Shown here one piece after another: positions 17,995 through 23,655 of a stretch of DNA of 25,808 nt. This DNA is from a virus. How positions within the stretch are numbered: the stretch's first letter is position 1; every line of letters begins with the position of its first letter. Location: positions 1 to 25,808 of IMG/VR virus record IMGVR_UViG_3300025127_000235; one strand, 5' to 3'. A program made the position numbers and the translations under genes. The notes under the pieces were generated by a model. It was given only the letters and a program-made list of their open reading frames with translations, was not told the origin of the DNA and did not search any database.

Positions 17995-18372
17995 CTGTAT
18001 TATACCTGATTGTGGTGGTGCTGTCAACGCACTTCTTAAAAATCTTTGTCCTATTGGTGATACTACGAAACTTATGATAGTTAAAGAACCTGCGATTGTC
18101 CACATCTTCTTCTCTATTGTTCTTAGACGATTATCTACAAGCATTATATCTCTCTCACATCCTTTCTTGATATCTGTTGCATGACGATCTAATTTCTGAT
18201 CTACTTGTTCAATCTTTTCAAATAATACTGCATCTATACGATCTTGTTTATCTAACTTCTCATTATGAACCGCAAGAAGTTCACCCATCTTCACAGAGTT
18301 TTCCTGTAAAGACTGAACTACTTTCTCAAGTCTTTCTAATATCGCTGCATTAACACTTTTGTTGTCATCCAT
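17986..18372 (-). CDS. Coiled-coil protein with C-terminal membrane helix (128 aa)
   Basis: Residues 1-90 form a long helical, coiled-coil-like region with hydrophobic heptads (ILERLEKVVQSLQENSVKMG, FEKIEQVDQKLDRHATDIKK). A membrane helix follows (MWTIAGSLTIISFVVSPIG, about 90-108) and a short tail. The layout resembles XhlA-type membrane-anchored lysis accessory proteins, which is only a topology match. The gene overlaps the next upstream one by 8 nt. Its last codons (SALTAPPQSGIIQTK) also contain a perfect sigma-70 promoter for the following unit, so this DNA serves two functions. Confidence 0.75.
   Translation of the reverse strand: MDDNKSVNAAILERLEKVVQSLQENSVKMGELLAVHNEKLDKQDRIDAVLFEKIEQVDQKLDRHATDIKKGCERDIMLVDNRLRTIEKKMWTIAGSLTIISFVVSPIGQRFLRSALTAPPQSGIIQTK
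17999..18027 (-). promoter_or_regulatory. Perfect-consensus sigma-70 promoter for the primase-nrdAB unit
   Basis: Reading leftward: TTGACA (18027-18022), a 17-bp spacer and TATAAT (18004-17999), all twelve bases as in the consensus. It lies inside the 3' end of the coiled-coil membrane gene and about 26 bp before the ATG at 17973. The expected start is close to 17992. Confidence 0.85.
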
Positions 18373-18556
18373 TTTTCTTATTTGCTAACCACATCTTTCG
18401 TGATCCATGTCCACCATAGATATATTTCTTTTTCTTTTTCTTCATAGGAGGATCATCTCCTGCTTCAATGGTACCAGCAATCTTGCCACCACCCACGTTA
18501 TTTGTAGGTACAGCAGCGACTGTCTCTTCAGACATAAATTGCTTAAAAGTTTTCAT
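18365..18556 (-). CDS. Small basic protein with capsid-targeting-like N-terminus (63 aa)
   Basis: The ATG at 18556 overlaps the previous stop (ATGA), so I chose it over an ATG at 18580. The product starts MKTFKQFMSEETVAAVPTNN, passes a Gly-rich and acidic stretch, then a run of six Lys (MKKKKKKYIYGG) and a basic tail. The first ten residues resemble the capsid-targeting sequence of T4 internal proteins (IPIII starts MKTYQEFIAE), which ends at a prohead-protease site of the (L/I)xE type. FMSE fits loosely. It may be a small DNA-binding protein packaged in the head. No family recognised beyond this. Confidence 0.65.
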   Translation of the reverse strand: MKTFKQFMSEETVAAVPTNNVGGGKIAGTIEAGDDPPMKKKKKKYIYGGHGSRKMWLANKKNG

Positions 18557-19794: not shown

Positions 19795-20166
19795 TCAATC
19801 GTACTTTTTTTTGCCTCCGACGATTCGACCAGTTCCTTTTTTGTCGTAGAATTTAACACCGTGCTTCTTGGTGTCGGAATATAGTCTATCGGATTCTTTC
19901 TTTTTGTCTCTTGCTCTATCCTTCGCATCCCTTATACGTCTTTGCATTTCGGGAAATGAAATCTTACGGTCTAACTTGAGTTCTTCTGAAGTAACTTTCT
20001 TCTCAGGTAGACCTTTGTGTTTGGTTGAAGCAAACTTCTTTACATCAGTTTTCTTCATATCCTCAGCTGCTTTCGCAGTCTCAGGAGTGGTAGGTGCTTG
20101 TTCGCCTTTTTGAATGGCACGAACAATTCCAAAGAACCTTTGTTGTTTTTTAGACAGTGCGGGCAT
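19795..20166 (-). CDS. DUF3008-like basic protein (123 aa)
   Basis: The product begins MPALSKKQQRFFGIVRAIQK, then has KKTDVKKFASTKHKGLPEKK, which matches what I remember of the DUF3008 family (a short Lys-rich module with an F-AS-T-KHKGLP signature). The remainder is highly basic and helical (RIRDAKDRARDKKKESDRLY). DUF3008 proteins are found in phages and bacteria without known function; the charge suggests nucleic acid contact. The start codon overlaps the stop of the 763-aa gene (TAATG). Confidence 0.8.
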   Translation of the reverse strand: MPALSKKQQRFFGIVRAIQKGEQAPTTPETAKAAEDMKKTDVKKFASTKHKGLPEKKVTSEELKLDRKISFPEMQRRIRDAKDRARDKKKESDRLYSDTKKHGVKFYDKKGTGRIVGGKKKYD

Positions 20167-22457
20167 TAGGTTCCTAAACCTCCCTTACGAACTGCCTGTA
20201 CATTTACATAATCCTGTGTGCTCTTGTAACCTGCCTTCTTTGCTTTATCTGCAATTGCTTTGTTTTTTGCTTGCTGTTCCTTTTTCTTCGCAAGCATCTG
20301 TGTAACTCTACCAGTTCCAACGTCAGACTTAGCACCCTTTACCTTTTTAGGTTGGTTCGCACCCATACGTTGTTTACCATATGTTTTCATGACTGCTTGA
20401 AAAGCAAGGTCTTTCTTTGCAGATCCACCTTTCTGAACAGGTTTACCAGTTTTGGTATCCATGCCCTTTTCTTTTTCAAAACGATTCAACTCACTTACAA
20501 CCTCACCATTTGGTTCATGTGATGCTTGAATATCAGATCCGGCACCCATACGAACTGCTTGCAACTTCTTCATGAGAACTTGCTTCTTTGCCATGTTCGC
20601 TTTCTTTTCCTTTGCTGCTAGTTGTGGGTCTGGTTTTTCAGTTTTTTTTTGAGCCTCCATTGCCTGATTCTCAAATATATCACCAATGATGTCTAGAAGC
20701 TTCTGGTCTTCTTTACGGAAAATGTTTTGTCCATATGCCTCTGCTTTGTATCCTTTATGATGCATTCTTGTTCCAGCTTCATTTCTATAGGTTTCATTTT
20801 CCATTCTTCCACCCATCTTACCTGCTTTTCTCAAACGGTTTCTTTCTGCTGCTCTCTTTGCTGCTGCCTTTCTGTTTCTATCATATGAAGACATTGCTTC
20901 ATTCATACCCTTAGTTTTTACACCTCTTTTTGCTTTATGCTCATCTGTTCTCTTCTTACTAAGTTCAGCTGCCTGTGATGGTTTCTGACCAAAGTATCCT
21001 TGAGGTTCTGTGCTACCTGCCTTACCAAATCTTCTTTCATTCCTCGCTTTTGTTCTTGGTAAAGAATAAATTGGTGATTTTACTTTATCTACTTTTGCTT
21101 CAATCATGTCACCTTCTGGTTCATGAGACATATTTAATCCCATAGAACGAAGTTTCATCTTCTTAAGATTCATCGCAGTTGGTATTTGTCTAGGATCATC
21201 ACTACCTTTGATCGTTACTGGAAGTGCTGCACCCATATCAAATGTAACATCTGTCATACCATCTGGTGTTTCTTTCTTATCTTTTACTTCCTCTTCTTCT
21301 CTTAGTCCTTTCTTAATTCCCTTCATTGCACCTTGGCCTGCACCTTTGATTGCACCACCGACTGCACCTGCAGTACCACGAAGAACTGCCATACCAGTTT
21401 TCTTAGCAACCTTCTTAACATTCTTAACTGCTGGTTTTACAACTTTCTTTTGAATAGACTTAGTTACTTTGTCATCAAACTTGTTGAATTTCTTGACTCC
21501 TGATTCTACACCTTTAGCAACATTAACTAACATTCCCTCTTCAACTGAACTTGGTGTACCATCTGCATCATGTTTGTGAGGTATGACGTTACCATCTTTA
21601 TCCTTTTGATGATGCTCTCTGACTTCATCTGGGAATACTTTGATAAGTTTCTTGTTGTTTACACCCTCACCTGTGATCTTTTTCTGTTTATCTTCAGATA
21701 CCTTCTCTGATAATTCAGAAAGTGCATCCCACTCAATAGACTCTTTCTTTGATGCAATTGCTTTACCGATTGCCTTACGACGATTCATTAGGTACTTATC
21801 AGTCTTATCCTTCTTGCCATCATTGTTTATATCACCATCTTCCTTACCAACAGGATCCATCTTACCCTTCTTACCAACCTTCTCTGACTTAGTAGGTTCA
21901 CCATAACCTGTCATCTCAACAGAGGATATTCCGGGATTACCACGAAGTTCTCCAATCTTAGCACGACTCGCCATTCTTACATATGAATTACCTGTCTTCT
22001 TATCTGTGACTCTTACTTTAAATTGTTTCTCTTCTGCCTCTTCCTTCATCTCTGCCTTCTTAAGATGATCGGCAGCAATATACCTATTATCTCCTTTCTT
22101 ATAATTCTGATATGCAGGTGTATTGCCAACCTTATCTGCGTTAGTGACAATCATCTTTTTCTCTACAAATATCTTCTTCAATATTGAAGTTGTAGATTCC
22201 TTAACAAGATTATCAACATCAATATATCCTTCACCCATAAGCATTTGTTTTGCTCTTGCTTTAATTGCAGGTGCAGCAGGAGACTTTGCTAACTGAGAAA
22301 TATATGCTTTACGCATTGCAGCAGGATCTACTCGACCACCAGCCTTTGCCTTCATTGATTGCTTGACTTTATAGCGTGAATCATACGCAAGTTGCCTTGC
22401 CTGTTTTTCAATCTTTTCCTTCGCTCCCACAGCAGGAGCAACCGCTGGTTTGTCCAT
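20166..22457 (-). CDS. Large Lys-rich internal/virion-type protein with EF-hand-like loop (763 aa)
   Basis: This very basic 763-aa protein has an N-terminal region with QLAYDSRYKVKQSMKAKAGG and an EF-hand or dockerin-like calcium loop (EDGDINNDGKKDKTDKYL, residues 206-223; ligand-like D209, N211, D213, D217). A Gly/Ala-rich amphipathic segment (GTAGAVGGAIKGAGQGAMKG, about 361-380) could bind membranes. Two SHEP(E/N)G(D/E) repeats sit near 444 and 646. Long Arg/Lys-rich helices follow (RNRKAAAKRAAERNRLRKAG). Several (L/I)xE sites are possible prohead-protease cuts. I infer a DNA-binding protein packaged in the capsid or a scaffold, from composition and late promoter. No enzyme domain is visible. 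Confidence 0.75.
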   Translation of the reverse strand: MDKPAVAPAVGAKEKIEKQARQLAYDSRYKVKQSMKAKAGGRVDPAAMRKAYISQLAKSPAAPAIKARAKQMLMGEGYIDVDNLVKESTTSILKKIFVEKKMIVTNADKVGNTPAYQNYKKGDNRYIAADHLKKAEMKEEAEEKQFKVRVTDKKTGNSYVRMASRAKIGELRGNPGISSVEMTGYGEPTKSEKVGKKGKMDPVGKEDGDINNDGKKDKTDKYLMNRRKAIGKAIASKKESIEWDALSELSEKVSEDKQKKITGEGVNNKKLIKVFPDEVREHHQKDKDGNVIPHKHDADGTPSSVEEGMLVNVAKGVESGVKKFNKFDDKVTKSIQKKVVKPAVKNVKKVAKKTGMAVLRGTAGAVGGAIKGAGQGAMKGIKKGLREEEEVKDKKETPDGMTDVTFDMGAALPVTIKGSDDPRQIPTAMNLKKMKLRSMGLNMSHEPEGDMIEAKVDKVKSPIYSLPRTKARNERRFGKAGSTEPQGYFGQKPSQAAELSKKRTDEHKAKRGVKTKGMNEAMSSYDRNRKAAAKRAAERNRLRKAGKMGGRMENETYRNEAGTRMHHKGYKAEAYGQNIFRKEDQKLLDIIGDIFENQAMEAQKKTEKPDPQLAAKEKKANMAKKQVLMKKLQAVRMGAGSDIQASHEPNGEVVSELNRFEKEKGMDTKTGKPVQKGGSAKKDLAFQAVMKTYGKQRMGANQPKKVKGAKSDVGTGRVTQMLAKKKEQQAKNKAIADKAKKAGYKSTQDYVNVQAVRKGGLGT

Positions 22458-22461
22458 TAAA

Positions 22462-23655
22462 TTATTTTTTTAATTTTTTTCTATATTTATTTATAAAGTG
22501 TAAACCGTAACTACTTCCGGGAACCATAGTTTCTACGTATTTACGATGAGCATCAGTGCCAACTTCCCTTTGATTTGCAGGGACTCCTGATACATCAGTG
22601 CCATTTACAACTGCCTCTGATACATCTTTAATCCATGATTTGAACATTAACTTATCTTCAGTTACACAGATCAAATGATTTGCACCACGACGAATAATAC
22701 GTCCAACTAATCCACTATTGACATTCTCTACGATTTGACCGACACGAAATATCTTTTCACCAATATAATTTTCACGAAGACCTTTCCAATCAAACTTAGG
22801 TGCTATCTCCCACAGATTCCAACCCTCTTTGATATTCATTGCAGAACGAACTTTTTTGTATAACTGCTCTGCATCTTTCTGACTTAATGAACTTGGAACA
22901 CCTTTCATGAATGTTTTTAGATCACCTTCGGCAGCTGCCTTTCTTTGCTTTGATGCAGACATTCCCTCTACACCTTCACCATCTGGGTCTCTATCTCCTG
23001 CAGACATGACCTCTACATTATCAAACTGATATAATTTACCGTTGTAATTATTTGCTAGTTTCTCAAATTCACCTACACGATCTGCACCACCAACAATTCT
23101 TACTCCTGCATATCCATCAGTATGTGCTTTCTTCAATACATCAAAGATGGTTCTGTTTGAATCATCATTGACAATCTTATCTTTATGCTTTGGAAACATC
23201 TTCTGCATCACAGACACTTTCATATTTGCATCCAATGGATTCTTCTTCTTATCCTGTGACCTTGAAGGAACAATAATATAATCATCTTCGTCAGATGAGG
23301 ATGCAACACTATCCAATAGTTTTTCGTGTCCTGTGGTAGGAGGATTGAAACGACCAAATGCAATTGTTAAAGTTCCTTTTGTTTTCTCAACCTCTGCAGG
23401 TTGCATCATATGTGTTGGTTCCTGTGCAGGTTCAGCAGATGTAGTTGCTGATAATTTCTTTTCCTTATCAGTCTGTGGTGGATCTTGTTGCCCTGCCCTC
23501 TGTCTCTTATTAAAAAATTTTAATTGTCCTCTCTCGGTCTTTGCTACAAACTCGCCATCTTTGTACCATCCTCCATGACCGTCACTCTTCAAACCCATAC
23601 GTGTGGCTTGTTGGACTGCCTGTGATTCTGATAAAAATTGGAAAAGAGATTTCAT
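22462..23655 (-). CDS. Capsid-targeted NMNAT-like nucleotidyltransferase (397 aa)
   Basis: The ATG at 23655 overlaps the previous stop (ATGA); an in-frame TTG at 23661 is less likely. The N-terminus MKSLFQFLSESQAVQQATRM resembles a T4 capsid-targeting sequence ending at an LSE protease site. Next is a Lys/Gln-rich linker (31-90), then a nucleotidyltransferase fold: TIAFGRFNPPTTGHEKLL (T/HxGH at 107-110), YIIVPSRSQDKKKNP, RIVGGADRVGEF, and MSASKQRKA (232-240), comparable to the ISSTKIR motif. Such enzymes transfer a nucleotide to a phosphate, for example in NAD or CDP-compound synthesis. The C-terminal 100 residues are a separate domain ending HFINKYRKKLKK. The substrate is unknown. Confidence 0.8.
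   Translation of the reverse strand: MKSLFQFLSESQAVQQATRMGLKSDGHGGWYKDGEFVAKTERGQLKFFNKRQRAGQQDPPQTDKEKKLSATTSAEPAQEPTHMMQPAEVEKTKGTLTIAFGRFNPPTTGHEKLLDSVASSSDEDDYIIVPSRSQDKKKNPLDANMKVSVMQKMFPKHKDKIVNDDSNRTIFDVLKKAHTDGYAGVRIVGGADRVGEFEKLANNYNGKLYQFDNVEVMSAGDRDPDGEGVEGMSASKQRKAAAEGDLKTFMKGVPSSLSQKDAEQLYKKVRSAMNIKEGWNLWEIAPKFDWKGLRENYIGEKIFRVGQIVENVNSGLVGRIIRRGANHLICVTEDKLMFKSWIKDVSEAVVNGTDVSGVPANQREVGTDAHRKYVETMVPGSSYGLHFINKYRKKLKK
22488..22495 (-). promoter_or_regulatory. T4-type late promoter (perfect TATAAATA) inside the upstream gene
   Basis: TATAAATA reads leftward 30 bp before the ATG at 22457. It lies inside codons for the C-terminal HFINKYR of the nucleotidyltransferase gene, so the same bases serve as protein code and promoter. 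Confidence 0.6.

Follow-up and report, generated by a model that had tools for sequence, protein, structure and literature searches.

A T4-type capsid-targeting leader may direct a core cyanophage nucleotidyltransferase into the phage head

We propose that a nucleotidyltransferase of T4-like cyanophages is a head-packaged enzyme with a T4-type targeting leader, cut by a protease, expelled with the DNA and acting early in infection, a reading that we consider likely. The enzyme is encoded by an ATG-start open reading frame of 397 aa (22462–23655, minus strand) in the window, the whole 25.8-kb virus record IMGVR_UViG_3300025127_000235 (25,808 nucleotides), which comes from a T4-like cyanophage. 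The first ten residues would constitute a T4-type capsid-targeting sequence, in which Phe/Leu-4 and Phe-7 would bind the prohead core, and a gp21-type protease would cut after Glu-10, between FLSE and the following Ser, and free the enzyme inside the head. At infection the enzyme would leave the head with the DNA and act early as a small-molecule nucleotidyltransferase, by adenylyl or cytidylyl transfer. For the window phage we infer the targeting function and the cleavage from the leader, and entry of the transferase into the host by analogy with T4. The enzyme has turned up in cyanophage virions in the work of several groups with nothing to explain why, and the leader would supply the mechanism. 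It also predicts the exact mature N-terminus, flags further cargo proteins by sequence alone and could be used as a tag for tracking cargo inside the heads of cyanophages. Delivery of the enzyme would mean that a very common ocean virus group alters host nucleotide/cofactor chemistry from entry onward.

The window protein falls in phrog_395 (E 5e-104), whose profile it matches over its full length, and has full-length matches across cyanophages. This family is the 'cytidyltransferase' of the cyanophage core, cluster T4-GC190 according to a note in the P-SSM2 record, and the gene keeps the same neighbours as in T4-GC190 cyanophages. Given full-length orthology and the same synteny, leader and motifs, the window protein shows no essential difference from known T4-GC190 / phrog_395 proteins (S-SM1, S-SCSM1 ORF91 'NMNAT', P-SSM2 PSSM2_194) and is a further member. 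The closest sequenced isolate by transferase protein is S-SKS1 (74.5% identity), where the transferase (HQ633071, 72006–73234) is split over two frames and no gene is annotated in the deposited record; the split may reflect an error in sequencing or a genuine frameshift. From its N-terminus, the window protein consists of the leader MKSLFQFLSE (residues 1–10; 23626–23655, minus strand as for all parts), a DGHGGWY module (residues 13–54; 23494–23619) that also occurs on a separate S-CRM01 gene, a variable linker (residues about 60–90), the nucleotidyltransferase domain (residues 93–275; 22831–23379; PF01467 E 8e-10, with support from pLDDT and Foldseek), a small beta domain (residues 282–346; 22618–22812) and a conserved tail. 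S-CAM3-like phages encode the small beta domain as a separate gene (S-CAM3 L160:2118-2309), labelled phrog_4808; the phrog_4808 label 'ribonucleotide reductase alpha subunit' looks misannotated, as the protein corresponds to this C-terminal domain of the transferase.

The preliminary description had likened the N-terminus MKSLFQFLSES to T4 capsid-targeting sequences, and this likeness held on closer comparison. In a scan of the T4 genome, LSE (residues 8–10) lay in register with IPIII (MKTYQEFIAE), and the leader has the features of a T4-type targeting sequence, namely aromatic or bulky residues at positions 4 and 7 and [LI]xE at 8–10. Of the 77 environmental relatives whose start is intact, 67 keep M-K-x-F-x-x-F-[LIF]-x-E and the other ten lack the x before the Glu. 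No change occurs at positions 1, 2 and 7, position 4 holds either F or L, variation among the ten is greatest at position 9, and the P1 residue is E in all 77, which agrees with the earlier suggestion that LSE is a prohead-protease-like site. Mutagenesis of IPIII in T4 assigned targeting to the capsid mainly to residues 4 and 7 and processing to residues 8 and 10 (PMC9026906), and these same positions are conserved in the cyanophage transferase leader. The leader is also found in Kyanoviridae isolates, and it is present on the transferases of S-SM1, Syn9, S-SCSM1, P-SSM2, S-SZBM1, S-RIM2, ACG-2014b, S-WAM1 and freshwater S-CRM01. Several homologues count against the packaging-leader reading: those of S-CAM3 and Paride have no leader, in the pelagiphage HTVC008M the leader is degenerate, and it is missing from the distant homologue of S-CBWM1 although an NMNAT was reported in the S-CBWM1 virion (PMC9602691). 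The constraint on the leader acts on the protein, because constant residues use both synonymous codons. An explanation of the first codons by constraint on the RNA or by gene overlap was rejected, given that K2, F7 and E10 are each encoded by alternative synonymous codons; the overlap with the upstream stop is limited to the transferase start codon.

With six [LI]xE triplets in the transferase, an LxE by itself says little, and we dropped it as the main argument in favour of the positioned ten-residue motif. Loose LxE N-termini in S-SCSM1 were only modestly enriched among virion proteins (12/48 vs. 38/234 others), and we gave this enrichment no weight. When M[KR]x1-2[FYLI]x1-2[FYW][LIMVF]xE was searched in six frames across six complete phage genomes and the window (1.23 Mb), all 14 matches lay at the start of an annotated gene or a homologue thereof, and S-SCSM1 had two matches compared with 0.08 expected from shuffling. 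Across the whole T4 genome the motif matched only gp61.1, identified by annotation, and two proteins that we take, from sequence and length, to be IPIII and IPII. A weight matrix built solely from cyanophage transferase leaders and scored on 1,780 T4 methionines ranked gp61.1 1st, IPI 4th, IPIII 5th and IPII 6th. In 80 related contigs the motif occurred 80 times (67 on the transferase and 13 on other proteins), with zero matches on their non-coding strand.

Cleavage after LSE is predicted for the window protein by comparison with the capsid proteins. T4 gp23 reads FLTE at residues 62–65, of which E65 is the known cut site, and the corresponding sites in the aligned capsid proteins read FLAE in S-SCSM1, FLSE in S-SKS1 and P-SSM2, and ILTE in S-SM1 and Syn9. 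The window leader ends in FLSE, the same four residues as at the cleavage site predicted in the S-SKS1 capsid protein. Strict cleavage is countered by the 10/77 relatives without position 9 (FLES) and by eight with Phe at P3. All of these relatives keep residues 4 and 7, and therefore their leaders may still target the protein while being cut inefficiently.

The known T4 systems offer partial parallels. T4 IPI, IPII and IPIII are head-packaged, and their ten-residue leader agrees with that of the transferase in the positions for targeting and processing. They are small and basic, however, lack an enzyme domain, and have mature parts unrelated to the transferase. T4 Alt, a packaged ADP-ribosyltransferase with a short N-terminal propeptide, is ejected with the DNA (PMC9026906); it and the transferase are both enzymes with a short N-terminal leader, although their enzyme folds are unrelated. 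The cyanophage leader heads unrelated, mostly strongly basic proteins, and one leader on such cargo is also the build of the T4 internal proteins. The 13 other carriers comprised proteins of 68–90 residues and large lysine/arginine-rich proteins of 401–682 residues, and in P-SSM2 the leader occurs on a 573-residue protein with a net charge of +76. We regard as evenly balanced a broader reading, in which a general T4-type leader would load a cyanophage cargo set comprising large strongly basic proteins, gp61.1-like proteins and the nucleotidyltransferase; injection would deliver this set, and the near-universal transferase would alter host metabolism before phage transcription. S-SCSM1 ORF30 carries the leader yet is absent from the virion-protein annotation, which counts against packaging. 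Sequence evidence that a set of other proteins shares the leader is a further addition of this analysis; in open-access full texts, cyanophage proteins with T4-type capsid-targeting sequences were treated nowhere beyond one T4 review.

In nine or ten related contigs (including L073:7835, L077:8984 and L119:5201), a small basic protein of 68–90 aa with the leader MKTFKEFISEEGYD is encoded downstream of the transferase. Homologous small proteins are encoded near the terminase gene by S-SCSM1 ORF30 (44215–44535) and at S-SKS1 113009 (minus strand), with the leaders MKTFKQFMSE / MKNFKQFLSE.

With regard to the enzyme, the two motifs described earlier as intact are indeed so: GRFNPPTTGH (residues 101–110; 23326–23355, minus strand) is invariant in 30 aligned sequences except for its two Thr, and in MSASKQR (residues 232–238; 22942–22962, minus strand) S233, S235 and R238 do not vary. 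F100–P106, G109 and H110 are likewise invariant in this alignment, which includes S-SM1 and Syn9 and extends down to 46% identity. PF01467 (CTP_transf_like) matched with 39.5 bits (cut-off 21), which together with the GxFxPxTxGH-type and SxSxxR motifs places the protein in the superfamily. The first His of the canonical HxGH is Thr in the window transferase, as it also is in PPAT/CoaD and eukaryotic NMNATs, and this residue does not settle the substrate. In the AlphaFold model, pLDDT is mostly 80–90 in the enzyme domain and below 50 at the ends, so only the enzyme domain is reliable. Foldseek matched this model to NadM, NaMNAT and CoaD as well as to archaeal NMNAT (E 3e-6 to 1e-4), and the modelled fold is consistent with NMNAT/PPAT adenylyltransferases. 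The window domain has the Rossmann-like fold of nucleotidyltransferases and the two signature motifs in common with NadM, NadD, NadR and CoaD; identity in the fold matches is 11–21%, and the window protein adds N- and C-terminal modules.

It is possible, if doubtful, that the packaged enzyme adenylylates NMN or NaMN specifically and thereby raises or restores NAD+ in the host at entry, either for metabolism or against NAD-depleting defences. NadR and NadD were the best curated profiles, NadM, NaMNAT and archaeal NMNAT stand among the top Foldseek matches, and the S-SCSM1 orthologue has been called NMNAT in the literature (PMC9602691). However, all NMNAT equivalog profiles scored far below cut-off (NadR, NadD and NadM: 23.2 of 341, 22.4 of 112 and 14.6 of 181 bits), PPAT structures fitted equally well (TMt 0.71), and a defence-library search gave no match. 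Curated PPAT profiles also gave weak matches far below cut-off, and a PDB sequence search with the family profile returned no significant match. NARP1 needs a Nampt-like Namat (PMC12774641), and PF04095 (Nampt/Namat) was found in 0/6 related complete phage genomes; the genome behind the window is incomplete. Because these six relatives are without Nampt, NARP-type NAD salvage is unlikely, and we rejected NARP1 or Nampt-fed salvage for them; the enzyme could instead be fed by host NMN or NaMN. The NMNAT identity given in the preliminary description is accordingly not upheld by the profiles, nor are its suggested targets, NAD metabolism or host-protein modification, of which the latter left no sign. 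We have corrected the label to putative adenylyl/cytidylyltransferase and assign no substrate specificity, with NMN or NaMN adenylylation as the leading but tentative guess.

The head-packaged enzyme that we favour was foreseen in the preliminary description, and published virion proteomes of orthologues bear out its presence. The core 'citidylyltransferase' T4-GC190 was found in S-SM1 virions (Sullivan et al. 2010, PMC3037559), and S-SCSM1 ORF91, 51.8% identical to the window transferase over its full length, was found in a CsCl-purified virion proteome whose authors discuss host entry (PMC9602691). Further detections are S-SZBM1_140 (PMC9146016), with two peptides only, and S-CREM2 ORF154 (PMC10665884). 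Packaging is not a new prediction, since orthologues had already been detected in purified virions; what is new is its probable mechanism, a leader for targeting and cleavage. Our search of the open-access literature found no published link between T4-GC190 / phrog_395 and a capsid-targeting sequence. An auxiliary metabolic enzyme made from the phage genome in the infected cell could also give a virion signal, through carry-over of an abundant protein, as the authors of the S-SCSM1 (PMC9602691) and S-CREM2 (PMC10665884) proteomes warned and as the two S-SZBM1 peptides (PMC9146016) would allow. We consider this improbable, given independent detections in at least four phages, the presence of same-island neighbours among the virion proteins and the match of the leader to T4 internal proteins at functional positions. 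Specifically, seven of the nine genes from S-SCSM1 ORF89 to ORF97 are marked as virion proteins, compared with 48/282 genome-wide (hypergeometric 8e-5, a generous value since genes cluster).

The counterparts of this island in the window are all on the minus strand. A strongly basic neighbour of 763 aa (+69) without leader (20166–22457) is probably a co-packaged head protein, judging from synteny and a motif shared with S-SCSM1 virion protein ORF92. The adjacent DUF3008-like basic protein of 123 aa (19795–20166) is the counterpart of virion protein ORF93, and a gp61.1-like protein of 63 aa with the leader MKTFKQFMSE (18365–18556) adjoins the gp61 primase as in T4. Packaging as a structural or core component, with enzymatic activity incidental or lost, would suit the additional N- and C-terminal modules and the basic head proteins nearby but is unlikely, as the active-site residues are invariant while the rest drifts to 46% identity, and the domain stands alone in other phages (e.g., Paride, S-CAM3).

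In many cyanophages (S-RIM2 at L157:447-1343, S-SM1, Syn9, S-WAM1 and S-SZBM1) the protein just upstream of the transferase contains a KWDGAP stretch, which recalls the KxDG motif by which ATP-dependent ligases bind nucleotides. A different gene, of 572 aa, takes this slot in the window.

We also observed that gp61.1 and its positional counterparts (S-SCSM1 ORF97, Syn9 near 154414, S-SM1 near 152739 and window 18365–18556) are similar to the N-terminal arm of the major capsid protein of the phage that encodes them. This similarity is weak in the case of the window protein (p 0.03–0.06). T4 gp61.1 (NC_000866 18966–19130, L155) aligns without gaps to gp23 residues 57–93, across the E65 cleavage site, with a score of 82 that 0/1000 shuffles reached, and it has no match to gp23 of the other phages. 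For the virion protein S-SCSM1 ORF97 and for the Syn9 counterpart, the best match is likewise the phage's own capsid protein.
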